Assembly: GCF_022179725.1 (NCBI RefSeq)
Contig: NZ_BPRC01000004.1
Coordinates: 186,001 to 250,000 of the forward strand
Length of the DNA: 64,000 nucleotides
Direction: 5' to 3'
Origin: Methylorubrum aminovorans
GTDB taxonomy: Bacteria; Pseudomonadota; Alphaproteobacteria; Rhizobiales; Beijerinckiaceae
Part shown: positions 3-42,554 of the stretch, piece by piece
Layout of the letters: each line of letters begins with the position of its first letter
How positions within the stretch are numbered: position 1 is the stretch's first letter
The notes under the pieces: generated by a model
Database searches by the model: none
The model's input: only the letters and a program-made list of their open reading frames with translations
What the model was told of the DNA's origin: nothing
Program-made: the position numbers and the translations under genes

Positions 3-392
3 ATGATCTCGCGCGATCTGCGGGCGACGGCCAAACGCGGCGTCGCCGAGGCGCTGCGGACGCAATCGGGACTCGGCGACGCGCTGGTGGACGGCCCGAC
101 CGGGGTCAAGATCCTGCCCTTCGACGACGCGGCCCTGAGCCTCGGCACCGCGGCCTATACCGGCGCGCTCCTGGCAACGGCGGCGTCCTTCAACACGGTC
201 TTCGTGGATATCGGGCTGATCGGCACCGACATTGCCGCCGAGCGCCTCGCCCAGGACCAGCGCTTCCCCGCCCTGCTGCTGACGGCGAGTGCCAAGAGCA
301 GCGCCGTCAGCCGGCTGCAGCGGGCCCTCGACGCCACCGGCCGCGACCGGCGGGTACAGCTCGTGATCACCGACGCGGAGGCCGAGGCGTGA
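3..392 (+). CDS. C-terminal part of an exopolysaccharide-locus protein, possibly BY-kinase/Wzc-like ATPase (partial)
   Basis: The frame is open to the left edge, so the first ATG is probably internal and the gene begins outside the window. What is visible is about 129 residues of alpha/beta character with a hydrophobic strand ending in VFVDIGLIGTD, which resembles the Walker-B region of the tyrosine-kinase-like ATPases that accompany polysaccharide chain-length regulators. No Walker A motif is present in the visible part. Its stop overlaps the GTG start of the next gene (GTGA at 389-392), so the two are translationally coupled. The neighbouring glycosyltransferase, deacetylase and flippase support a role in surface polysaccharide production. 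The family assignment is tentative. Confidence 0.45.
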   Translation: MISRDLRATAKRGVAEALRTQSGLGDALVDGPTGVKILPFDDAALSLGTAAYTGALLATAASFNTVFVDIGLIGTDIAAERLAQDQRFPALLLTASAKSSAVSRLQRALDATGRDRRVQLVITDAEAEA

Positions 393-2444
393 GCCCTCAG
401 CCGCACCGGACGGTGGCGGCGTTCCGCGCGGCCCTATTCACCGCTGTGCTCGTCCTCGGCTCGGCCGCGCCGGGACGGGCCGGCGAGGCGAAGGCGCCCG
501 TGGTCCTGCAGGTCGCGCCCACGGGAGCAGCCGGAACGGGCCGGAAGGACCGCTTCGCCGATCTGCCGCAGGCCCTGGCCCGCGTGGCGGCCCTGCGCCG
601 GCAGGGGGAGGCGCGCGCGATCGTCGTGGAGCTGGAGCCCGGCACGCACCGGATTACCGCGCCCGTACGGATCGGCCCCGAACATTCCGGTGCAGCCGGG
701 GCGCCGCTGACCCTGCGCGGCGCGGCCGACGGATCGAGCCGGCTCGTCGGCAGCGTACCCCCCTGGTCCCTGCCGCGTTGCCGCCGCGCCTGCGCGAGCG
801 GCTGCCCGCGGTCGCGCGCGCGGCGGTGCGGGCCTACCGCCTGCCCGAGGCCCTGCGCCGGGAGCCGGCCTTCCGCGCGCCGCGTACCTTGCGCGAGACG
901 CATCCGCGGGTCACCGAGATCTTCGATGCGGGGGGGCGCTGCGCCCGGCGCAGTGGCCGAATCCCGGTCCTGATCCCGGGCCGAACACCGGGTGGACGAC
1001 GGTGGCCGGCGCCGCGGCCGGCGGCCTGGACTTCATTCTAAGGGACGTGCCGGGCCTGCCCGACCTGTCGCAGGAGCGCGACCTGTGGGTGGAGGGCTTC
1101 TGGCGCTGGGACTGGCTTCTGGAGACGATCCACGTCACGCAGGTCGATCAGCGCCGCCGCCGGCTCGAACTCGACGTCCCGCCCTACGAGGGTATCCGCG
1201 AGGGTGCGCGGATGCGGGTGGTCCACGCGCTGGACGCCCTCGACGAGGCCGGCGAATGGTGGCGCGAGAGCGAGAGCGGCCTGCTGCTCGCTTGGCCCTC
1301 TGCCGGCGCGGCCGAACTGGAAGCGAGCCTCGCGGAGACGCTGATTCGGGCGGAGGGCGCCCGCCACCTGCGCATCGAGCGTCTCAGACTGGAGCGCGCC
1401 CGCGGTGACCTGTTCGTCGCGCGAGGCGGGGAAGATATCGAGATCCGGGCGAGCGCACTGGCCTGGGCGGCGGGCCGCGCGGCGGTGTTCGAAGGTGTCG
1501 CCGGGGGCGGCGTCTCAGGCAGCGCGATCCATGACATCGGCGCAAGCGCGGTCCGCCTCGTCGGCGGCGATCGCGCCTCCTTGCGGCCGGGCGGCCTGTT
1601 CGTGCGCGATTCCCGCTTCACCCGCTTCTCGCGGCTGGCCCAGACCCAAAGTTCGGCAATCGAACTCGACGGCGTCGGCGCGGAGGCGAGCGGGAACTTC
1701 ATCACCGACGCGATCGGCTACGCGGTCTACCTACGCGGCAACGATCACGTCTTCCGCCGCAACGAGGTGGCTCGGCTCATCCACGGCCTGAGCGACACCG
1801 GTGCGATCTATGCCGGCCGCGACTTCACCGCCCGCGGCTCGATCATTGAGGACAACTACGTCCACGACATCCGCACCGTGCCGGGGATGGAGGTGAAGGG
1901 CGTCTACCTCGACGACATGGCGAGCGGCTTCACCGTTCGGCGCAACCTGTTCGTCGATGTCCAGCAGCCAGTCTTCATCGGCGGCGGCAGCGACAACGTC
2001 GTCACGCGCAACGTCTTCGTCGCATCGAGTCCGATGGTGGCCCTCGATGCTCGAGGCCTTACTTGGATGAAGCCGGCGCTGAACGAGCCCGATTCGGAAT
2101 TCCACACCGCGTTTGCCGCGATGCCGCTCGCATCGCCGCCCTGGCGGATGCGCTATCCGAGTCTTGCGCAGGCGCTTTCCGACGAGCCGGGCGTCGCCCG
2201 CAACAACCAGATCGTCGACAACGTCGCCATCGCCAGCGACGGGCTCGCCCTCACCGACATGGCTGATGCGAGCCGGCAGATCATCCTGTTCAACACCCGC
2301 CTCGACGGTCCGCCCCCGCCATCCGGCGACCTCGATGCGCTGGTCCGCTTCGCCGCCGGACGCGGCGTGACGCTCGGGCTCGATCCGCGGGTTCTGCGGC
2401 GCGACGGGTTGCCGGGCTCGCCGTTCACCGATGCGCGCCGCTGA
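389..2444 (+). pseudogene. Secreted right-handed parallel beta-helix protein, broken by two frameshifts
   Basis: Three consecutive reading frames together give one protein of about 680 residues. Frame 1 (389 to about 757) encodes a signal peptide and the start of the beta-helix fold. Reading continues one frame over from about 760 to 935 (ending EIFDAGG), and the third frame from about 936 carries the rest, with repeats such as VRRNLFVDV and VTRNVFVAS typical of pectate-lyase-like beta-helix proteins. The first shift falls in a run of six C (758-763), the second in a run of seven G (930-936). Each could be restored by one added base. Proteins of this fold in polysaccharide loci are often lyases or epimerases, but no catalytic residues can be assigned here. 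Either the gene is dead or the homopolymers are misread. Confidence 0.75.
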
Positions 2445-3496: not shown

Positions 3497-4657
3497 TCAG
3501 GCGCAGCCCGCAAGGACCGGTTCAAGGGCATCGATGTAGCCCGTCACGGCCGCTTCCGCCGTGAAATGCGGGAGGGCGCGCTCCGCCGCGCGCCGCAGCC
3601 CCTGGCGGAGACTCTCGTCATCGAGGAGTCTCACGGTCGCCGCGATCCAATCCGCTACGATCATCGGCCGCACCTCACCGCAGCCATGGGCTTCGAGCAG
3701 GCCGCGGGCCGCGCCGGAATGGGGCGAGGCCAGCACCGGCGTGCCGCTCTGGAGCGCTTCCTGCACCACGATCCCCCAAACGTCGCCGCGGCTTGGGAAC
3801 AGGAAGAGCCGCGCCGAGGCGTAGACTTCGGGCAGCGCCTCCTGGCCGAGGAATCCGTCGAACCGGGCGGAGAGCCCGGCCTGGGCGAAACGCGCCTCCA
3901 TCTCGGCCCGCAGCGGTCCGTCGCCCGCGACCCGGACCGACAGCGGCCGGCCCAGCGCGCGGCAGCCGAGCACCACGTCGGTGAAGAAGCGGGCGCCCTT
4001 CACCTCCTCGTTCAGCATGCCGCAGAACAGGAGGTCGTAGGGCCGGGCAGAATCCGGCGGCGGGGCGGACGGCGTCCAGGCCGGGAAGAGCGGGCTGAGG
4101 ACGAAGCGTTCGGGTGGCAGCCCGTAGCGGGCAAGCACGGCACCGCTGCCCGCGCTCGGCCCGATCCCGGCGGCGGCCCCGGAAACGATGGCGCGGCGCA
4201 GCCAGCGATGCGGGGCGGAACCCTGGCCGGGATCGGTCTCGGGCACGCAGTCGGTGCGGATCAGGGTCGGGATGCGCCGCAGGCGCGCGGCGCCGGCCGC
4301 CATCAGCATGGTCGGCGAGAAATCGTTGAGGACGAAGGCCGCCGGCCGGAGCGCGGCGAGCCGCGGCACCACCGCCGGGTTGACGTAGAGGTTACGGATC
4401 GAGGAGCGGTGCCAGCGCAGGCCCGGCAGCACCGCGTGCCGGTAGTGGAGGGGCGGCGGCATCACCCATTGCCGCGCACGCTCGCGCTGTGTGCAGGACA
4501 GGACATGCAGGGCCCGACCGTCCCGGCCGGCCAGCCGCTCCGCCAGACGCTCGTAGAGCACATGGGTGTAGGGCGCGAGCGCCCCGGTCACGACGACGAC
4601 CGGGGGCGGACCGGGCGCATCGGAAACGATGTCGGACGGCCTGGCACCGGCTCGCAT
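3497..4657 (-). CDS. Glycosyltransferase family 4 (GT-B fold)
   Basis: Predicted to transfer a sugar from a nucleotide-sugar donor onto a growing surface polysaccharide. The start is taken at the ATG giving MRAGARPSD, because an upstream in-frame start would run into the preceding deacetylase gene. The N-terminal half begins with a beta strand (PPVVVVTGALAPYTH) and the C-terminal half has the family 4 signature: a donor domain opening (YDLLFCGMLNEEVKG), then DGFLGQEALPEVYASA and the acidic loop SRGDVWGIVVQEALQSGTPV, whose second Glu is the usual donor-binding residue. Length (386 residues) is normal. It lies 76 bp downstream of the deacetylase on the same strand, so the two probably form one transcript. 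Confidence 0.85.
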   Translation of the reverse strand: MRAGARPSDIVSDAPGPPPVVVVTGALAPYTHVLYERLAERLAGRDGRALHVLSCTQRERARQWVMPPPLHYRHAVLPGLRWHRSSIRNLYVNPAVVPRLAALRPAAFVLNDFSPTMLMAAGAARLRRIPTLIRTDCVPETDPGQGSAPHRWLRRAIVSGAAAGIGPSAGSGAVLARYGLPPERFVLSPLFPAWTPSAPPPDSARPYDLLFCGMLNEEVKGARFFTDVVLGCRALGRPLSVRVAGDGPLRAEMEARFAQAGLSARFDGFLGQEALPEVYASARLFLFPSRGDVWGIVVQEALQSGTPVLASPHSGAARGLLEAHGCGEVRPMIVADWIAATVRLLDDESLRQGLRRAAERALPHFTAEAAVTGYIDALEPVLAGCA

Positions 4658-4733
4658 GGGCGGGGACCTCGGGTCGGGCGCTGCGGGCGTGAAGGGTCCG
4701 GCGCCGGTCACCAGTGATAGCTCCGAAATCTTC

Positions 4734-5588
4734 TCAAGCCGTTCCTGCCGCTCTTCGTCGGGTCGGCCCCGTCGCCCGCCATCCCGTCCTGCGGCCACCC
4801 ATCAGGGCCTCGAAATGTGAGACCGGCCAATGCGGCTCGACCACGTGGCGGGGCAGCATGGGAAGATCGGCGGCACTGGTCGCCCGGCCGCGCCGGGTGG
4901 TGAAGAACGTCCGGTAGCCGCTCTCCAGTGCCAGGGCCGGATCAAGGGCCGGGTCGAAATCGTGGCCGGCCACGCCCCAGGGACAGGCGAAATGGCGGAT
5001 CTCCCGGCCGGTGAGGGCGGCAAGCGCGCGGCGCGAGCGAGCGATCTCGTCGGCCACCCGATCACGGCCGAGCCGGCTCAGGCGGTGATGGGTGGCGGTG
5101 TGCGATCCGATGTCGAGCCCGTCGTCGCACCAAGCCGCCACCTCGGCCCGATTCATGTAGAGGCGTCCGCTCGGGGCCAGGGACGTCACCCGATCGAGAC
5201 CGGGCGGGGTCGAGGGCGGCGCATCGATCCAATCGCTGACGAGGAAGACGATGCCGGGAACGCCCAGGGCTTTCAGAACCGGGCGCGCTACTTCGAAGGT
5301 ATCGGCGTAGCCGTCGTCGAACGTGATCAGGAAGGCGCGCTCACCGGCCGGCCATCCCGCGGCCAGACGATCGGCGGCGCTGTCGGCATCGATGAAGTCG
5401 CCATGCCCGCCGAGATGGCGCAGTTGCGCGGCGAAGTGATCCTGCTCGGCTTCCGGCACCTGATGGTAGCACAGGGTGTAGAGGCCGGCCTCGGCATGGG
5501 CCAGGGATGTGAACAGGGCCGTGCCGCGCAGGGCGAGCGCACGCAGAGCCGGCACCCGGCGCAACGTCGTCTTGACCCAGTGTTTCAT
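4734..5588 (-). CDS. Polysaccharide deacetylase (NodB homology domain)
   Basis: Carbohydrate esterase family 4 enzyme, expected to remove N- or O-acetyl groups from a surface polysaccharide or its lipid-linked intermediate. Motif 1 is TFDDGYADTF with the catalytic base and metal-binding Asp pair, and motif 2 is HTATHH with the metal-binding histidines. Motif 3 is FACPWG, where the usual residue before Pro is Tyr, a mild deviation. The protein is 284 residues. The N-terminus has a short hydrophobic stretch (LRALALRGTALFTSL) but no clear cleavage site. The 203-bp gap to the divergent FemAB-like gene probably holds promoters for both directions. The last residues are Arg-rich and may be a low-complexity tail. 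Confidence 0.85.
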   Translation of the reverse strand: MKHWVKTTLRRVPALRALALRGTALFTSLAHAEAGLYTLCYHQVPEAEQDHFAAQLRHLGGHGDFIDADSAADRLAAGWPAGERAFLITFDDGYADTFEVARPVLKALGVPGIVFLVSDWIDAPPSTPPGLDRVTSLAPSGRLYMNRAEVAAWCDDGLDIGSHTATHHRLSRLGRDRVADEIARSRRALAALTGREIRHFACPWGVAGHDFDPALDPALALESGYRTFFTTRRGRATSAADLPMLPRHVVEPHWPVSHFEALMGGRRTGWRATGPTRRRAAGTA

Positions 5589-30917: not shown

Positions 30918-31145
30918 ATGACCGAGCTTCTCAACAGGGCCATCGCGCGTATCCGCGCGCTTCCGCCGGAAACGCAGGACAACATGGCCCGCGTCCTCTT
31001 CAGCCTTGCCGGGGACGAGGAAGCGGCTCTTGCGCTGACGCCGGAGGAGGAAGCCTCGTTCGTCCGGTCTCGGGCCCAGGCTGCCCGTCGCGAGTTCGCG
31101 ACGGATGAGGAGGTTCGGGCAATCTGGGCAAAGCATGGCCTGTGA
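30918..31145 (+). CDS. Antitoxin of a ParE-type toxin-antitoxin pair
   Basis: 75 residues starting MTELLNRAIARIRALPPETQ, an acidic helical protein with no clear DNA-binding ribbon. Several related small proteins of this kind precede ParE/RelE toxins in alphaproteobacteria. Its stop overlaps the toxin start (GTGA at 31,142-31,145), the normal arrangement for coupled antitoxin-toxin genes. An upstream GTG at 30,903 is possible; the ATG is preferred by position. Confidence 0.7.
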   Translation: MTELLNRAIARIRALPPETQDNMARVLFSLAGDEEAALALTPEEEASFVRSRAQAARREFATDEEVRAIWAKHGL

Positions 31146-31435
31146 GACTGCGCTTCACGCCGGACGCCGCCGCTGAACTCGACGCGGTCTTGATGTCGAT
31201 CGCGGATGAATCGCTCCAAGGAGCCCGCCGCGTCCAACGCCGCATTCAGGCTGTGATCGACCTGCTCCTCCGGCATCCGCAGAGCGGGCGGCCGACCAGC
31301 CTCCGGCCCATGCGCCGGATCGGAGCAACACCCTACCCCTACCTGGTCTTCTACGAGGCGACCGAGGAGGAGGTCGTGATCCTCGGCATCCGGCACGCCG
31401 CCCGCGACCCGGCCTCCATGCCGGATCAATCATGA
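31142..31435 (+). CDS. ParE/RelE-family toxin
   Basis: 97 residues with the RelE/ParE fold: VRLRFTPDAAAELDAVLMSI, a helix pair rich in Arg (GARRVQRRIQAVIDLLLRHP), RPTSLRPMRRIGATPYPYL and the C-terminal strand VVILGIRHAARDP. ParE members inhibit gyrase; RelE members cut mRNA, and the two cannot be told apart here. The GTG start sits in the antitoxin stop. Confidence 0.8.
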   Translation: MRLRFTPDAAAELDAVLMSIADESLQGARRVQRRIQAVIDLLLRHPQSGRPTSLRPMRRIGATPYPYLVFYEATEEEVVILGIRHAARDPASMPDQS

Positions 31436-31492: not shown

Positions 31493-32887
31493 TCACTGAC
31501 GTTCCGCGGCGGCCTTCGCCGCCCACTTCGCCGCCGCCTTCTTCCGCCAGGGCGCCTCGGCCTCCCAGTCGCCGGCCATGATGCAGCCGTAGGGCTCCAC
31601 CGTGTCGACGATCTCGGCCAGATCGTACTTGGCGATCTGAACCCGCACGCTCGCGGCATCCTTGTAGGCGCCCGGCAGCTCCGAGAGGTCCGGCTTCCCG
31701 CAGAAGAAGCGCACGTCGATGCCCTCGGGCAGGGCGGGCGCGTGCTCCCGCAGGAAGGCCTTGCGGCTCATGTTGCGGCCCGCCCCGTGCGGGGCGAATC
31801 CGAGCGAAGCCGCGTGATCGCGGTGACGGGTGATCAGGATCGGCTCGGCCATGTTGAGCGGGATCAGCGTGCGCCCGTCATCGTCGGCCGAGAATCCTGC
31901 CCAGGACGGGGTCGCCCCCTTGCCGTGGTAGTAGAGCCCGTCCTCGCGGCGGAAGACGAAGTTGTGCTCGTTCCAGAACCGGTCCGCGACCGCGTTGCCG
32001 ATTTGACGCGCCACGAGGTCGTGGAGCGCGAAGTGGCTGGCCTTGGTCCAGTCCCGCACGATCTGCAAAGCCTCCCAATAGGCCCGGCCGTCCTCGGATT
32101 CCGCCCGGATCCAGGCGTTGTGCGCCGGAACCCGCGGGGCGACGATCGACGTGTGGCGGCGCGCGACCGCCATGCCCTTCTTGTAGAGCTGGGCGCCAAG
32201 CCCCCGCGAGCCGTGATGGGTAACGAGCGCCACCTGCCCCGTCGAGGCGAGGTGTCCGACAGAGGCGAAGTGGTTGCCGTCCCCTTGGCTGGCGAAGTGC
32301 CCGACCGCCATGCCCGCGAATTCGGCGAGGAAGCGGTTGCCCGCGACCCCCGCCATCACCGCGTCCGGCGGTTGGACCACGCCCTTGCGGCCACCAGGAC
32401 CGAAATGCGTGACCGCCTGCATCGCGTCGAGCACGCGCTTCGGGTCGTCGGCGCGGCGGAACACGGTGATCGCCACCGAGCAGCAGATGTCGGCCGAGTG
32501 GAAGCCCGGATGGATCGCGTCCGCGCAGGCCACCGCGCCGCCGACGGGGATCGTGCCCTCCGCCAGCCCCGAAGGGCAGGCATCCGGCATCACCGCGCCC
32601 TTGACGATGGTCGGCACCCGCATGAGCGCGTCCATATGCGTGATCACCGCGGCCGCGTTCGCCCGCTCGGCCTCCGTCTCGGCGTCGAGGAAGACGCCGA
32701 ATTCGAGGCTGTTCGTGCGCATCGGCAATGCGTGGGTGGCAGGGTCGTGGGTAGTCAGGTGCGCGCGGATCGCCGCGTCGTCGCTGCCCTCGAGGCGCAG
32801 GGCGTTGGCAATGGAAACCGCCCGCTTGAACCATTCGCCGGGCTGGAAGCCCCAGGCGATGAGGTCGCGTCCGTTGATCGCGGTCAT
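31493..32887 (-). CDS. rtcB: RtcB-family RNA ligase
   Basis: GTP- and Mn-dependent ligase joining 2',3'-cyclic phosphate or 3'-phosphate ends to 5'-OH ends of RNA. 464 residues. Metal and nucleotide motifs are visible: ADAIHPGFHSADICCSV (Asp and Cys ligands), ASQGDGNHFASVG, VTHHGSRGLGAQLYKKGM, WNEHNFVFRREDGL and FAPHGAGRNMSRKAFL, whose His is the guanylylated residue in characterised RtcB. It follows rsr on the same strand with 140 bp between, a gap that holds a REP element. Archease and RtcA are not present in the window. Association with Ro60 and Y RNAs fits a bacterial RNA repair operon. Confidence 0.92.
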   Translation of the reverse strand: MTAINGRDLIAWGFQPGEWFKRAVSIANALRLEGSDDAAIRAHLTTHDPATHALPMRTNSLEFGVFLDAETEAERANAAAVITHMDALMRVPTIVKGAVMPDACPSGLAEGTIPVGGAVACADAIHPGFHSADICCSVAITVFRRADDPKRVLDAMQAVTHFGPGGRKGVVQPPDAVMAGVAGNRFLAEFAGMAVGHFASQGDGNHFASVGHLASTGQVALVTHHGSRGLGAQLYKKGMAVARRHTSIVAPRVPAHNAWIRAESEDGRAYWEALQIVRDWTKASHFALHDLVARQIGNAVADRFWNEHNFVFRREDGLYYHGKGATPSWAGFSADDDGRTLIPLNMAEPILITRHRDHAASLGFAPHGAGRNMSRKAFLREHAPALPEGIDVRFFCGKPDLSELPGAYKDAASVRVQIAKYDLAEIVDTVEPYGCIMAGDWEAEAPWRKKAAAKWAAKAAAERQ

Positions 32888-32975
32888 GGTGCCGCTCCGC
32901 CCTCGTGAAGTCTTGCTTCTTGAAATCTTCGGGATTGGGGCGGGCGGCAGGGTGCCGTCCGCCCCTCTCGATGGT

Positions 32976-33021
32976 GCATCGTCTCTGTCCGAAAGCCGGA
33001 AGCCACCTTTCGGAACGATGC
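32976..33021. repeat. REP-like element, family A, between rsr and rtcB
   Basis: Begins GCATCGTCTCTGTCCGAAAG and ends CTTTCGGAACGATGC, with the middle GCCGGAAGCCAC. The ends are complementary, so it can fold as a hairpin. Other copies are at 40,119 and 51,709-51,808. Confidence 0.75.
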
Positions 33022-33027
33022 CTCGCG

Positions 33028-34632: not shown

Positions 34633-34685
34633 TGCTCGCTCCTCTCTCCGCGGGGTTCTTTTGGGATTGTCCCCGAGGCTCGTTG

Positions 34686-34788
34686 CGGTCGCGCGGTCGT
34701 GATTCGTGCAAGGGGTTCCAGCGCCTCGCGGCGCTCAGGATTCGAACCTCAGGACCAGATCACCCTCGCAATCCGGCCCGCGCGGCCG
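34686..34788 (-). ncRNA. Y RNA unit 7 (nearest to rsr), tRNA-like module without D-arm
   Basis: Last unit of the array. Outer stem CGGCCGCGCGG pairs with CCGCGCGACCG with one mismatch; upper stem TGCGAGGG pairs with CCCCTTGCA. Between them the conserved GGGCCGG lies nine bases before GTGATC, matching the 5' signature of the array. The insert has a T-arm with GGTTCGAATCC (34,738-34,748) and an acceptor-like stem AGCGCC, tetraloop GCGA, GGCGCT. There is no D-arm. The 3' strand has CACGACCGCG, the counterpart of CATGACCG in other units. Rsr begins 54 bp further on. Ends are inferred from pairing. Confidence 0.8.
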
Positions 34789-34807
34789 AATACGTTTGTC
34801 TTGTCAG

Positions 34808-34957
34808 CGGCCGTGCGGGCATGGTGGGGAGACTAGGGCTCCGCTTGCGCGGCATGCGTCGCCCGTTCGCCACCCGGGCATCGGACCTCGCGGCCCGTGG
34901 GATTCGAACCCGGCCTTTCGGCCGACGATCACCAGTCTCCATCGGCCCGCACGGCCG
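34808..34957 (-). ncRNA. Y RNA unit 6, tRNA-like module
   Basis: A perfect 12-bp outer stem (CGGCCGTGCGGG with CCCGCACGGCCG) and a 9-bp upper stem (GGAGACTGG with CTAGTCTCC) flank the conserved internal loop (CCGAT opposite CCACCATG). GGGCCGA is nine bases before GTGATC. The module has a hairpin GGCC-GAAA-GGCC, a T-arm with TTCGAATCCC, acceptor-like stem CGGGCC-GCGA-GGTCCG, and a D-arm-like GCCC stem with a loop resembling tRNA-Leu, then CCGC-GCAA-GCGG. Four hairpins end in GNRA loops or tRNA loops. 150 nt, longest of the seven. Confidence 0.85.
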
Positions 34958-35005
34958 ATCTTCTGTCATTTGCGCCCTCGGGCGGATGGTCGTCCGCCTC
35001 CGGGT

Positions 35006-35130
35006 CGCGCGGTCATGGGGTGAGGAACGGGGCGCTCTATCCAACTGAGCTACGGGCCTCTCGACCCGGAGGGATTCGAACCCGCGACCACCTCATTAAG
35101 AATGATAACCATTCCTCTTCGGCCCGCGCC
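35006..35130 (-). ncRNA. Y RNA unit 5, permuted tRNA-like module with complete T- and D-arms
   Basis: Outer stem GCGCGG with CCGCGC, conserved loop GCCGAA opposite ACCCCATGA, upper stem GAGGAA with TTCCTC. GGGCCGA is nine bases before GTTATC. The insert reads, in order: hairpin CATT-CTT-AATG, T-arm (GCGGG-TTCGAAT-CCCTC), acceptor 3' strand CGGGTC, tetraloop GAGA, acceptor 5' strand GGCCCG, TA, D-arm GCTC-AGTTGGATA-GAGC. Thus the tRNA parts are circularly permuted and the acceptor stem is closed by GAGA instead of ending in CCA. This is the clearest tRNA mimic of the array. 125 nt. Confidence 0.88.
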
Positions 35131-35165
35131 TTTTTGAATCTTTTCCTACAACTGAGCCGTGTGCG

Positions 35166-35301
35166 ACCCTGCGGTCATGGGTGTCGGGGACGGGTTTGCT
35201 GAGCTACGGGCGTGATGCCCGGCGAAAGTCGAATTCGCGACCTCCGCAGCGCAGGCTGCGGCGCTCTACCGGTAACCGTCCCCGTTCGGCCCGCAGGGGC
35301 C
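35166..35301 (-). ncRNA. Y RNA unit 4, permuted tRNA-like module
   Basis: Outer stem CCCTGCGG with CCGCAGGG, perfect upper stem CGGGGACGG with CCGTCCCCG, loop GCCGAA opposite ACACCCATGA. GGGCCGA is nine bases before GTTACC. The insert has an anticodon-arm-like hairpin CCGCAG-CCTGCG-CTGCGG, T-arm GCGAA-TTCGACT-TTCGC, acceptor-like CGGGC-ATCAC-GCCCG, then TAGCTCAG as half of a D-arm that is not closed. About 136 nt. Confidence 0.85.
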
Positions 35302-35343
35302 GCCGGGATGGGATGAAGGGATGAGGGGCCGAGCCGGAGCGGC

Positions 35344-35461
35344 GGCCACGCGGGCATGGTGGTGCGGACGGGAATGTCCTTACGGACAACCGAGCCCTCG
35401 GCCCGAAGGCGTCAGGCGTTCGACTCCCTAAGATAACCGTCCGCTATCGGCCCGCGTGGCC
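35344..35461 (-). ncRNA. Y RNA unit 3, degenerate module with UUCG hairpin
   Basis: Perfect 11-bp outer stem GGCCACGCGGG with CCCGCGTGGCC and 8-bp upper stem GCGGACGG with CCGTCCGC, loop CCGATA opposite ACCACCATG. GGGCCGA is nine bases before GTTATC. The insert no longer has a canonical T-loop; it has GCC-TTCG-GGC in the place of the acceptor-like stem and a GTCC-GTAA-GGAC hairpin. 118 nt. Confidence 0.85.
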
Positions 35462-35588
35462 GAGCGTATCTCGCGCGACCGGATACGACCGGATCGACCT
35501 TGGCCGCTCGGACCCTAGACGGGCGAAAGCGGCGACGCAGAGATCGTCGTGTTTCATGCCTTGCTCCGTCGAGGCGGGGCCAATGGGA

Positions 35589-35662
35589 GACGCGGACATG
35601 TGAACGGGCGATCGGATGGTTTCACGTGACAGGTGATAACCGATGCCCACCGGCCCGCGCCG
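35589..35662 (-). ncRNA. Y RNA unit 2, minimal form without tRNA-like module
   Basis: Only 74 nt. Outer stem GCGCGG with CCGCGT (one G-U), upper stem GGGC-ATCGG with CCGATCGCCC (one bulged C), loop with CACATGT on the 3' side. GGGCCGG is nine bases before GTTATC. The apical part is a short arm closed by GGTT with AACC and containing TCACGTGA. It keeps the whole Ro-binding stem while lacking an effector module. A gap of 127 nt follows before unit 3; it has a CGACG-N7-CGTCG hairpin but no complete Y signature. Confidence 0.8.
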
Positions 35663-35761
35663 GTGATGTTGTTCGAGCCAAGAACCGGGTGTGGGTACGA
35701 AGGAGCGAAGCTTTCCCGTACAGGTAAGCGATAACGCTCGTTTCTCCGGCCCGGCTGAGCC
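35659..35761 (-). ncRNA. Y RNA unit 1 (promoter-proximal), non-tRNA hairpin module
   Basis: Outer stem GCCGG with CCGGC, upper stem CGAGC with GCTCG, and a larger internal loop (GCCGGAGAAA opposite AACAACATCA). GGGCCGG is ten bases before GTTATC, one more than the others. The insert has a hairpin with a GTACG/CGTAC stem and no T-loop. Its 3' end overlaps the 5' end of unit 2 by a few bases, so ends are approximate. It begins 10-15 bases downstream of a promoter-like sequence. Confidence 0.72.
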
Positions 35762-35771
35762 GATGGGCTGG

Positions 35772-35800
35772 TGCTTAAGGTTGTACCGCGGGTGCGTCAA
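35772..35800 (-). promoter_or_regulatory. Predicted promoter of the Y RNA array
   Basis: On the minus strand TTGACG (35,795-35,800) and TAAGCA (35,772-35,777) are separated by 17 bases. The -35 is good and the -10 weak, which is common in alphaproteobacteria. Transcription would start near 35,761-35,766, at the 5' end of unit 1. No sigma-54 element (TGGCAC-N5-TTGC) is seen, unlike RtcR-controlled repair operons. Confidence 0.5.
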
Positions 35801-35843
35801 CCGGAAACTTGAAAATTCTTTCAGTTTCGACCATCTCCGCCCT

Positions 35844-36173
35844 ATGCTCACCCCCGCCAACCCGCCTGCCATCACCCCCGCCCAGATCCGCGCCGGCCGC
35901 GGCCTTCTCAAATGGACGCAAGGGGTTCTGGCTCATCGTGCCAGCATCTCGGCGGTGACGCTCAACATGATCGAGAGCGATCAGGTCGCCCCGCGGATCA
36001 AGACTCTCGACGCGATCCGCTCGGTGCTCGAAGGGGAGGGCATCCGCTTCATCGGCGACGAGAGGGAAGGCTTCGGCGTGATGATGCGACCGCGGGCCGC
36101 GAGCTCGGCGAGCCCTGATCCATCGGAGACGCCTCAGGGGAAAACGTCGAGATCCATGCGGGCTGCCGGGTGA
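35844..36173 (+). CDS. XRE-family helix-turn-helix regulator
   Basis: 109 residues. The HTH region is AQIRAGRGLLKWTQGVLAHR followed by ISAVTLNMIESDQVAPRIKT, then LDAIRSVLEGEGIRFIGDE, a pattern found in many short alphaproteobacterial XRE proteins. The C-terminal 35 residues are low-complexity. The gene is divergent from the Y RNA array (44 bp between the predicted -35 element and the ATG), so it could repress that promoter and its own. Its stop overlaps the pxpA start (GTGA), so it may alternatively belong with pxpA. Both views are inference from position. Confidence 0.8.
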   Translation: MLTPANPPAITPAQIRAGRGLLKWTQGVLAHRASISAVTLNMIESDQVAPRIKTLDAIRSVLEGEGIRFIGDEREGFGVMMRPRAASSASPDPSETPQGKTSRSMRAAG

Positions 36174-40247: not shown

Positions 40248-42554
40248 TCAGGCGAAGATCAGATCCTTCACCTGCCCGGCCAGCGCGGTATCCCACGACC
40301 AGTTGGACTGGCCGACGAGGTCGCTCGTCCGCAGGACATCCAGCGGAACCGCGCCCTGGCCCTCGGCCACGACCTTGTCGTTCTTGATCAGGCGCATGTA
40401 GCCGGCCTCGTCCACGCTCGCCTGCCACTTCGCCATCTCCCCCTCGACGATCGTGTCCAAGGCGGTGATGCGGTGCTTGGTAGAGCCGGTGAGGATCTCG
40501 AACGCCATGTCGTCGCCGTTGCCGACTTGGCCGAGCCAGATGTTGTCGCTGTCCGGGCCGTTGCCGGTATCGAACACACGCTGAAAGTGGCCGTCGTCGA
40601 GATCGTCGAAGCGGACTTCGGCGAACATCTTGAAGGCGCCGTCAATCTCGGGGATGGCCTTGTACGGCGTGATGGTCAGGTCGCTCACCTCGCCGACGAG
40701 GGGCTTGTCCGCCGCCCAATTGGATTTGCCGACGAATTCGTTGACCCGCGCGATATCCTTCGGGACGATGCCCTGACCCTCGGCCAGGAGGACGCCATCC
40801 TTGAACAGGCGCATCCAGCCGGTCTCGTTGACGCTCGTCGTCCACGTCGCCTCCTGACCCTCGACGATCGCCCCCTTGGCCACGACATGGGCGGACTTGC
40901 TGCCGTTCACGATGGTGAACTGCATGTCGCTCGACCTGCCGATCTGCCCGAGAAAGACGTTGTCGGCGCCGGCACCGTTTCCGAAATCGTAGACGCGCTG
41001 CCAGGCGCCGGCATCGAGATCCTCGAACCGGACCGTGGCACTCGCGGTGAAGGCGCCGTGGATGTCGGGCAGATCGTCCTTGAAGGTCAGATCGTAGACG
41101 CCGCCTTTCAGCGCCGTGTCGGCCCCCCAGTTGGACGCGCCCACGAGGTCCTTCACGCGGGTCACGTCGCGCGGCACGACCCCTTGACCCTCGGCGACGC
41201 GTACGCCGTCCTTGGACAAGGACATCCAACCCCGCTCATCGACGGCGGCGGACCAACGCGCCTCCACGCCCTCGGTGATCGCGTCGAGGGCGGTGATACG
41301 ATGCGTGATCGCGCCGTCGAGGATCTCGAAGGCCATGTCGCGTTCGTTGCCGACTTGGCCGAGCCAGATGTTGTCGCTGTCCGGACCGTTGCCGGTGTCG
41401 AAGACGCGCTGGTAGAAGCCGCCCGCGAGATCGTCGAACCGGACCCGCGCGGTGACGCTGAACGCCCCGTCGATCTCGGGGATGTCGGCGCGATAGGCTT
41501 CGTCGGCGGCGGCGTTCAGAGCCATTTCGTAGGTCTCGCCTTGGCCGGCGGCCCCCGTGCCGTAGCGCGCCTGCAGGTGGGCGAGGAGCCCCGACATGCC
41601 GAGCACGGTGTCATCGAAGTTCAATGCGTCGATCGAGGTCAGCGTGTCGATGCTGCCCGAGGCGAGATGCTTGATGGAGACCGAGCCGCCGCCGTTCGTG
41701 TTATAAAGGGCCAGGTAATCCTGGCTGCGGCCTGCGAACACGGCGTTGTCGGTGCCGTCGCCGCCATCCAGCGCATCGCTGCCAGCGCCGCCGATGAGCG
41801 TGTCGTTGCCGGCGCCGCCGAAGAGCCGGTCATTGCCCGCGCCGCCGTCGATCCAGTCGTCGCCCCCATAGGCATAGAAGGTGTCGCTGCGAGTGCCGAG
41901 CGAGAGCTTGTCTGCCCGCTCGGTTGCGATCGGCATCCCCTTGTCCTGCAGCATGGCCAGATCGAGGTCCGAAATGGCCGGACGCCCTCCCCAGGGGGAA
42001 TAAGGATCCATCAGATCCTCGATCCCCGAGACATGCGCGCGGGTTGCGTCGAGCTGGACCGCGCCGCCGAGAACCGTCCGCGTGTTATCGCCGTTGAAGA
42101 CCGGCGCGCCGTTGGCCGAGGTCGTGGCCGCGAAATCGACGAAGCCGATCGCGTGCCCGATCTCGTGCTGGAACAGGGCGAACGCATCGATCTTGTTGCC
42201 CGGAACCGCGGCCGTTCCGGCCGGATCGTAGAACAGGTCTCCGAGCCGATGCTCACCGAGCGTGACGGTGCCCTCCGGGGCCCCGCCGTTCCCGTCATAA
42301 CCTTCGCGCGCTTCGAGGATGGCGGCGTATTCCCACCGCGTTCCGCTCCAGGCCCAGTTGGGACCGCCATTGGCGAGGTAGTTGCCGCCGCCGACGTTGC
42401 CGATACCGATCGTGATACCGATCGTACCCTCACCTTGAAGATACTTGGCCCAGCCGTCCGCCGCACCCTGCGCGGTCGCGAGGATCAGATTGGCTCGGTC
42501 GCCAGCCATCGAGATCGAGTAACTATTCGCCCAGGTGACTGAAATCTTCGTCAT
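40248..42554 (-). CDS. Secreted RTX metalloprotease-like protein with three C-terminal repeat domains
   Basis: 768 residues. The N-terminal domain (1-210) is a metzincin-like protease with HEIGHAIGFVD at 130-140; the third zinc-site position is Asp140 instead of His, and a Met-turn candidate is EDLMDPY (Met182). Residues 229-268 are RTX calcium-binding nonapeptides (YGGDDWIDGGAGNDRLFGG). Then three copies of a roughly 135-residue beta-rich domain (361-497, 498-633, 634-768), each with GAF...VRFDDL, a QRV(F/Y)D..NG motif and AEGQG.VP. These look like LamG/concanavalin-type folds. No N-terminal signal peptide, consistent with type I secretion; no exporter genes are nearby. Confidence 0.8.
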   Translation of the reverse strand: MTKISVTWANSYSISMAGDRANLILATAQGAADGWAKYLQGEGTIGITIGIGNVGGGNYLANGGPNWAWSGTRWEYAAILEAREGYDGNGGAPEGTVTLGEHRLGDLFYDPAGTAAVPGNKIDAFALFQHEIGHAIGFVDFAATTSANGAPVFNGDNTRTVLGGAVQLDATRAHVSGIEDLMDPYSPWGGRPAISDLDLAMLQDKGMPIATERADKLSLGTRSDTFYAYGGDDWIDGGAGNDRLFGGAGNDTLIGGAGSDALDGGDGTDNAVFAGRSQDYLALYNTNGGGSVSIKHLASGSIDTLTSIDALNFDDTVLGMSGLLAHLQARYGTGAAGQGETYEMALNAAADEAYRADIPEIDGAFSVTARVRFDDLAGGFYQRVFDTGNGPDSDNIWLGQVGNERDMAFEILDGAITHRITALDAITEGVEARWSAAVDERGWMSLSKDGVRVAEGQGVVPRDVTRVKDLVGASNWGADTALKGGVYDLTFKDDLPDIHGAFTASATVRFEDLDAGAWQRVYDFGNGAGADNVFLGQIGRSSDMQFTIVNGSKSAHVVAKGAIVEGQEATWTTSVNETGWMRLFKDGVLLAEGQGIVPKDIARVNEFVGKSNWAADKPLVGEVSDLTITPYKAIPEIDGAFKMFAEVRFDDLDDGHFQRVFDTGNGPDSDNIWLGQVGNGDDMAFEILTGSTKHRITALDTIVEGEMAKWQASVDEAGYMRLIKNDKVVAEGQGAVPLDVLRTSDLVGQSNWSWDTALAGQVKDLIFA

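Follow-up and report, generated by a model that had tools for sequence, protein, structure and literature searches.

What occupies the DNA between rsr, the gene for a bacterial Ro60 orthologue, and a divergent XRE-type gene in Methylorubrum aminovorans, and how many kinds of RNA might a single Rsr protein serve there? In the window (the whole stretch of DNA analyzed here, 64,000 nt of contig NZ_BPRC01000004.1), seven tandem stems of the Ro60-binding (Y RNA) type were found on the minus strand at 34685-35762, immediately upstream of rsr (Table 1). Each stem combines GGGCCGR, a spacer of nine bases (ten in U1) and a GTTATC-like element (GTGATC as the second half of the motif in U6 and U7) with a distal strand of the CATGNCC type. 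The units thereby have the stem that characterizes bacterial Y RNAs (GGNCCGR, approximately nine bases, a GUUAUC-like element and a distal strand, forming two helices), U1 being the weakest example, and they have the characteristic position beside rsr. The first-pass annotation of this DNA had described seven tandem Y RNA-type units in front of rsr, and a motif search, a stem scanner and a unit-counting rule all agree with that description. It had also placed the array directly before a Ro60 orthologue with TROVE and vWA domains; both domains were recovered with Pfam, and the protein matches PDB entries 2nvo (RSR, E = 5.2e-116) and 1yvp (Ro, E = 8.4e-116). Approximately 50 nt separate the end of the array from the rsr start codon on the same strand.

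Table 1. Array units and neighboring features, in window coordinates
Feature	Position	Strand	Description
rtcB, RNA ligase	31493..33022	-	Pfam RtcB, E = 9.5e-29; start provisional
rsr, bacterial Ro60 orthologue, 534 aa	33028..34632	-	Pfam TROVE, E = 1.1e-38; vWA_Ro60, E = 6.7e-64
U7 (type G)	34685..34789	-	Ro60-type stem with T arm and acceptor-like hairpin only
U6 (type F)	34807..34958	-	Putative tRNA-like domain with long variable arm (class II)
U5 (type E)	35001..35135	-	YrlA-like unit: T arm, closed acceptor, D arm
U4 (type D)	35163..35302	-	Ro60-type stem predicted to enter a four-arm permuted tRNA-like domain via the D loop
U3 (type C)	35342..35463	-	Ro60-type stem with two inner hairpins
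U2 (type B)	35584..35666	-	Mini-Y, stem alone, ~72 nt
U1 (type A)	35677..35762	-	Ro60-type stem, motif GGGCCGG-N10-GTTATC; no tRNA-like part
Operator/promoter-like block	35795..35822	-	GAAAGAATTTTCAAGTTTC...TTGACG; conserved in named loci
Divergent XRE-type helix-turn-helix gene	35844..36173	+	HTH_3, E = 1.5e-6

The pattern GGGCCGR-N9-GTTAYC occurs four times in the 64-kb window, each time inside the array, and was absent from 100 dinucleotide shuffles. A stem scanner in which a match needs both helices as well as the distal strand, run on both window strands, scored six array units at 33-55, compared with a top score of 32.5 outside the array; U2, at 33, therefore barely exceeds the background, and U1 (25.5) is weak. 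Two covariance models were also used, R1 built from type D units and R2 from type B. In the window, R1 matched U4 (143.9 bits, by construction), U3 (52.8), U5 (49.6), U7 (40.0) and U6 (26.6), with the next match (25.9 bits) on the strand opposite U4, whereas R2 matched U2 (91.5 bits, by construction), U3 (31.2), U7 (24.5) and U5 (21.7), with a top match outside the array of 16.1 bits. R1 gave no match to U1 or U2 and R2 none to U1, U4 or U6, which leaves U1 unmatched by either model in the window.

The distal strands first assigned were upheld for the units other than U1. When U1 was compared with the 24 remaining type A copies (some of poor quality), its strand was placed at CACACCCGG (35693-35685); most of the copies from relatives have CATGTCCGG, CACGTCCGG or CATGACCGG aligned to it. 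The strand originally proposed, CATCACCGG, overlaps the start of U2 and was rejected; a script chose it in 2 of 25 type A copies (L003 and L032; L and G numbers denote loci and genomes). No convincing distal strand was obtained in the type A copies of L015, L016, L045 and L047.

Conservation beside rsr in related strains had been named as a check on the Y RNA interpretation, and the array was found to be kept. R1 and R2 matched an identical set of 29 out of 111 genomes of the genus, and all 29 are rsr-positive. The thirtieth rsr-positive genome, G085 (L104), has rsr as fragments only, one of them with a stop, and gave no R1 or R2 array match. A single rule was used to count units within 1.5 kb ahead of rsr; it was applied to 31 regions, comprising the 29 genomes and two loci of one Acetobacteraceae MAG. 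Four units were counted in 3 genomes, five in 12, six in 7 and seven in 7, the window's own genome giving seven; the Acetobacteraceae loci have four and five. On the reverse strand, the same rule returned no unit in 18 regions and one unit in the remaining 13. Across the genus, the units mostly follow the order A-B-C-D-E-F-G, with losses and replacements: types F and G also occur as variants Fp and Gp, type C was not recognized in L010-L017, and units E and Fp abut without a spacer in L010 and L017. Typing by eye of 28 genomes recovered type B in 28 and type D in 27 (the type D of L040, recognized by eye, fails the unit-count rule). No plasmid copies of the array were found. Seven units had been thought exceptional, a view that does not survive this comparison: four to seven is normal in the genus, and an Anaerolineaceae MAG locus (L024) has at least eight such motifs. 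Seven is not a record, and the number alone is not exceptional.

In one genome of the set (G069, L103), all seven array units are intact (297-1991, minus strand), and rsr is cut to its first 80-90 residues (the match covers residues 1-92) and continues in frame into RtcB, giving an open frame of 564 aa; provided that the assembly is correct, the array has been retained there in the absence of a complete Rsr. More broadly, of 398 genomes sampled from the phylum, the TROVE family was detected in at least 9, a lower bound given that G141, where another search found the whole protein, is missing from the count.

Covariation, the other comparative check that had been named, was found for types D and E. 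The type D alignment (26 sequences, 37 pairs) had 95.1% of cells paired, compared with at most 49.0% in slid controls, and nine pairs changed on both sides versus 3.7 ± 1.4 in shuffles; these figures, as well as those for type E, lean toward structure, because the shuffles take no account of relatedness and each structure was drawn on a single row. Two doubly changed pairs fall in the type D T arm and two in its 7-bp extra arm; none falls in the upper stem or the D stem. The latter (GAGC/GCTC) is paired in 25-26 of the 26 sequences but invariant, and therefore speaks neither for nor against the fold. In the acceptor-like helix, pairing is lower (84.7% of cells), which variation in helix length among species explains in part. 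For type E (25 sequences, 33 pairs), 94.2% of cells were paired versus at most 49.5% in slid controls, and 41 cells were doubly changed versus 14.7 ± 2.5 in shuffles. Doubly changed pairs numbered nine versus 6.3, a value equaled or exceeded in 22 of 500 shuffles; the value for further pair types was equaled or exceeded in 152 of 500. Taken as a whole, these comparisons support the Y RNA interpretation offered in the first-pass annotation.

The main point was absent from that annotation: the units appear to bear different tRNA-like domains, with the tRNA-like parts of U4 to U7 seemingly wired in different ways. U5 matches the Rfam YrlA family (RF02553) with 44.2 bits (E = 3.7e-8, model positions 24-84 of 114) and has the permuted tRNA-like domain of that family (T arm, closed acceptor, D arm), its acceptor closing over a 4-base loop. 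This score lies under the gathering score of 69, and U5 is therefore called YrlA-like, not a listed member. Type E copies of L008 and L010 scored 52.1 and 50.3 bits. The match of RF02553 to U4 is weak (21.5 bits, E = 0.14), and there was none to U1-U3, U6 or U7. In U4, the order is Y strand, GG-TAGAGC, 7-bp arm, AGGTC, T arm, closed acceptor, TAGCTCAG and Y strand, from which all four tRNA arms are predicted in permuted arrangement, with the Y stem within the D loop. An extra arm replaces the anticodon arm; by reading, it has approximately seven pairs and a loop of 4-5 bases in most sequences, and is thus without a normal anticodon loop. U6 may resemble a tRNA-Leu with its long variable arm: for type F and for type Gp, the consensus fold obtained separately contains a GGCC-GAAA-GGCC hairpin, a T arm and an acceptor-like hairpin, and the GGCC hairpin lies ahead of the T arm, matching the layout of tRNAs whose variable arm is long. 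When types F and Gp were aligned jointly, the consensus fold did not contain the GGCC hairpin, and the single-sequence fold of U6 did not contain the T arm. U7 retains the T arm and the acceptor. No tRNA arms were seen in U1-U3; by reading, the type C copies of L008, L009 and L046 have a T-arm-like hairpin that U3 does not. U2 and U3 gave full-length matches to nematode stem-bulge RNA (RF01656; 22.9 bits, E = 0.08, and 25.3 bits, E = 0.018, respectively; gathering score 38).

To which tRNAs the heads are most alike was assessed by simple local alignment to own tRNAs (a set of 42 distinct sequences, from 46 loci of 49 matches), with 12 shuffles per unit. For type D, the best own tRNA was Asp in seven of the eight genomes tested, and in the eighth Asp came second to Ala. 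For type F, it was Leu in all nine copies (one a tie between two Leu), which are close relatives and not nine independent results. All type D and type F scores exceeded the best of their 12 shuffles. The Gp copies, class II units from other species, gave Leu in three of five, one being under its shuffles, and the Fp copies of L007, L011 and L014 were under theirs. Type E exceeded its shuffles in eight of eight copies, without a consistent isotype. Among the copies of types A, B and C tested, 4 of 13 exceeded their shuffles, including U2 of the window (29.0 versus a shuffle maximum of 22.5); the excess was absent from the same type in L005, L008 and L010.

Ordinary tRNA genes were rejected as the identity of the units. 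ARAGORN found no tRNA gene in the window, the top Rfam tRNA score was 21.7 versus the 29 required, and the array units do not show the usual tRNA succession of acceptor, D, anticodon and T arms, complete with an anticodon. No Rfam family reached its gathering score in the window, and a match to the snoRNA sR40 on the plus strand opposite U4 (E = 0.0029) was taken as chance.

The neighboring genes set the array within a partly conserved locus. As first noted, rtcB adjoins rsr in the window, an arrangement typical of RNA repair operons; it does not belong to a conserved core, being found beside rsr in only 6 of 17 named relatives (of the eleven misses, L011, L012 and L017 have less than 1.5 kb downstream). 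The divergent gene is of the XRE type, not the rtcR of RtcR-controlled RNA repair operons, and such a gene was found at all 17 named Methylobacterium loci, in G069 and at both loci of the Acetobacteraceae MAG. All 17 named loci also have a CTGAAAGAATTTTCAAGTTTC-like sequence followed by TTGAC, beginning 46-48 nt before the motif of the first unit. This arrangement suggests that the array may have one promoter under XRE control. A sigma-70 scan of the window locus gave no promoter match, and neither a promoter nor a terminator match was obtained within the array on the minus strand. Elsewhere in the window, a small open frame downstream of rtcB (31142-31435, plus strand) gives the impression of a ParE/RelE-type toxin, and the translation of a long open frame (40248-42554, minus strand) shows a HEIGHAIGF motif like that of zinc proteases together with GGAGND-type repeats, and has repeated domains after these.

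We consider it probable (roughly 0.7) that the array comprises seven predicted Y RNAs with one stem and different heads, which are co-transcribed, cut apart and loaded onto one Rsr. The tandem stems, their largely kept order, the linkage to rsr and the unit-specific inner sequences, all established by sequence and comparison, form the basis of this reading. A single promoter in the block before U1, under the XRE-type protein, would drive both the array and rsr, and processing would release each RNA from the joint transcript, since no internal promoter or terminator match was obtained. The Y RNA stem binds the outer face of Ro60 in known Ro60-Y RNA complexes, and the stems described here would bind Rsr in the same way. 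The separate RNAs would then likely load the same Rsr ring with heads that are tRNA-like, T-arm-only or empty. The heads of U4 (Asp-like), U5 (YrlA-like), U6 (Leu-like) and U7 (T arm only) may dock Rsr to different partners, candidates being PNPase and tRNA-modifying or tRNA-processing enzymes, and U1-U3 may act mainly as gates that block the Rsr ring. With different heads docking differently, the bound Y RNA would set the cargo of Rsr. Given that four of the seven predicted Y RNAs have different predicted tRNA-like parts, the single Rsr probably works with several tRNA mimics instead of one RNA partner.

The variation in unit number (four to seven among species) and the apparent absence of types from whole groups, such as type C in L010-L017, would also be expected if the units were interchangeable Y RNAs kept for dosage, with heads that drifted without separate functions. 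Such redundancy is unlikely, given that the order of types is largely kept genus-wide, that types B and D were near-constant in the genomes typed by eye, and that compensatory changes preserve a fold particular to type D. Less likely again is that the array forms one long structured 5' leader of the rsr mRNA, by which Rsr binds its own message and no RNA is released. The strand, the proximity to the start codon and the lack of internal promoter or terminator matches would all suit a leader; known bacterial Y RNAs, however, are described in the part of PMC8394870 drawn on here as separate RNAs of 90-150 nt, the abutting E and Fp units of L010 and L017 suit cutting, and tRNA-like heads would have no obvious use in a leader.

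A third explanation, that these are decaying tRNA genes with leftover arms and that only U5 is a working Y RNA, draws on the tRNA-like pieces in U4-U7 and on the tRNA arrays that adjoin rsr in other phyla. We find it scarcely credible, as the window has no tRNA gene, the covarying Ro60-type stem common to the units is foreign to tRNAs, and the whole array is kept and linked to rsr in 29 genomes.

If the units are indeed Y RNAs with tRNA-like heads, how might a tRNA-like domain come to be joined to a Ro60-binding stem? Y stems inside tRNA-like units of normal arm order were found in MAG loci named Anaerolinea, Anaerolineaceae and Gemmatimonadetes and in further Chloroflexota and Gemmatimonadota genomes. 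These linear units have the Ro60-type stem in the anticodon loop and lie upstream of rsr (L019, L020, L022, L024, L028, L122, L125, L137, L138 and L140). In L019, for example, the units at 4209-4330 and 4510-4633 each match the Rfam tRNA model over their full length, with a 56-nt insertion that falls precisely at the anticodon loop; another unit of this locus (4701-4830) is a tmRNA in one Rfam listing and a tRNA in another. Seven tRNA matches of at least 121 nt were obtained across L019, L020, L022 and L024, and ARAGORN tRNAs stand in front of the Y units in L020 (32) and L024 (23). The YrlA model fits the linear loci in a shifted register, at 26-39 bits versus 41-49 for the tRNA model.

The register was scanned in 16 loci, a linear call requiring a T arm, a D arm and an acceptor of at least 6 of 7 pairs; scoring by 7-base complements alone did not separate linear from permuted, and the D arm was therefore also required. 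The scan found 60 motifs in 15 of the 16 loci, 36 of them with a T arm. D arm and acceptor lay upstream (linear) in 16 of these 36, distributed over 10 loci, and downstream (permuted) in two, one of which is also linear. In an alignment of 18 linear units, all seven pairs of the acceptor helix had changes on both sides, and 16 of 28 pairs were doubly changed versus 8.8 ± 1.5; the upper Y stem was the weakest part (75.4% paired). A model of the linear reading, R3, matched every genome in two sets (200/200 and 301/301), its short matches being tRNA-sized. By itself it is unspecific, and therefore only matches of at least 100 nt were used. Among the matches listed (E to about 1e-11), 6 and 11 genomes had matches of this length, and all of these belong to the 9 and 14 rsr-positive ones (the rsr match of G966 spans 37 residues).

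L028 apparently contains both forms: a linear unit at 3534-3658 (116.4 bits, R3) and a second Y unit at approximately 4597-4736 (30.2 bits, R1), which by reading ends at the lower stem and has a T arm and a closed acceptor. The loci of Labedaea (L023) and the Acetobacteraceae MAG were read as permuted, the latter by reading only. A linear tRNA reading across neighboring Methylobacterium units (R3 scores of 68.2 bits in L010, 66.5 in L017, and 47.3 and 43.6 in the window) was rejected, because the stems are specific to, and covary within, each permuted unit and the U5 acceptor is closed. Relatives of Rsr are also encoded in 340 of 50,697 phage records. Y-like units precede the rsr relative (R1; L170-L173) in two phages (two and three units) and one plasmid (two units); a third phage read, Phosso, had no Y-like unit by R1.

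These loci lead us to a broader proposal, which we advance tentatively and rate at somewhat below an even chance. One Ro60 would work with isotype-specific tRNA impostors (U4 as an Asp-like four-arm form, U5 as a YrlA-type form, U6 as a Leu-like class II form and U7 as a T-arm-only form), and bacterial Y RNAs would have arisen when a Ro60-binding stem replaced the anticodon loop in arrayed tRNA genes. The heads would thus probably derive from tRNA genes, and a half-unit shift in the register in which tandem linear units are read would give the permuted order of YrlA RNAs. We infer the register shift from the occurrence of linear units in Chloroflexota and Gemmatimonadota loci, of apparently both forms in L028 and of permuted units elsewhere. 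The linear tRNA-Y units would offer a concrete route by which bacterial Y RNAs could have acquired a tRNA domain in circularly permuted form. In the Methylobacterium-type genus, in turn, a single Rsr is accompanied by as many as seven naturally occurring heads borne by the same stem; each head can therefore be removed or exchanged, so that why Ro60 needs Y RNAs becomes testable.

In the literature searched, which lacked the main primary papers on bacterial Y RNAs, no name was found for the linear tRNA-Y units and no paper joined Y RNA with Methylobacterium; Ro60 and Methylobacterium occurred together in two papers, medical reviews to judge by their titles. According to the portions of the sources cited here, a bacterial Y RNA has already been described in print as circularly permuted relative to tRNA (PMC11472068), the tRNA-like, permuted YrlA is modified by DusA and TruB, and a tether for PNPase is described (PMC7790460, PMC8394870, PMC4726728, PMC9569102, PMC11472068, PMC7824862). 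YrlA-type RNAs (RF02553) share with the array the Ro60-type stem, the position beside rsr and, in U5, the permuted succession of T arm, acceptor and D arm. In contrast, the Salmonella operon rsr-yrlBA-rtcBA, as described in part of PMC7790460, has two Y RNAs, whereas the array has seven, with other head topologies and upstream of rsr; RtcR is the regulator there, and an XRE-type gene adjoins the array here. The RYPER complex of Deinococcus radiodurans, in which Rsr sits on the Y RNA stem and the exoribonuclease PNPase at the other end (PMC4726728 and PMC8394870, both in part), provides the model for the roles of stem and head, PNPase binding being only presumed for the units described here. 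Animal Y RNAs and nematode stem-bulge RNAs (RF01656) resemble U2 and U3 in their proximal motif and stem, although both units score below the gathering threshold and bacterial heads are tRNA-like or absent. The linear tRNA-Y units of Gemmatimonadota and Chloroflexota likewise place a Ro60-type stem and a tRNA-like body upstream of rsr, often several to a locus, but differ from the array in their normal arm order, their open acceptor and a stem that fills the anticodon loop.
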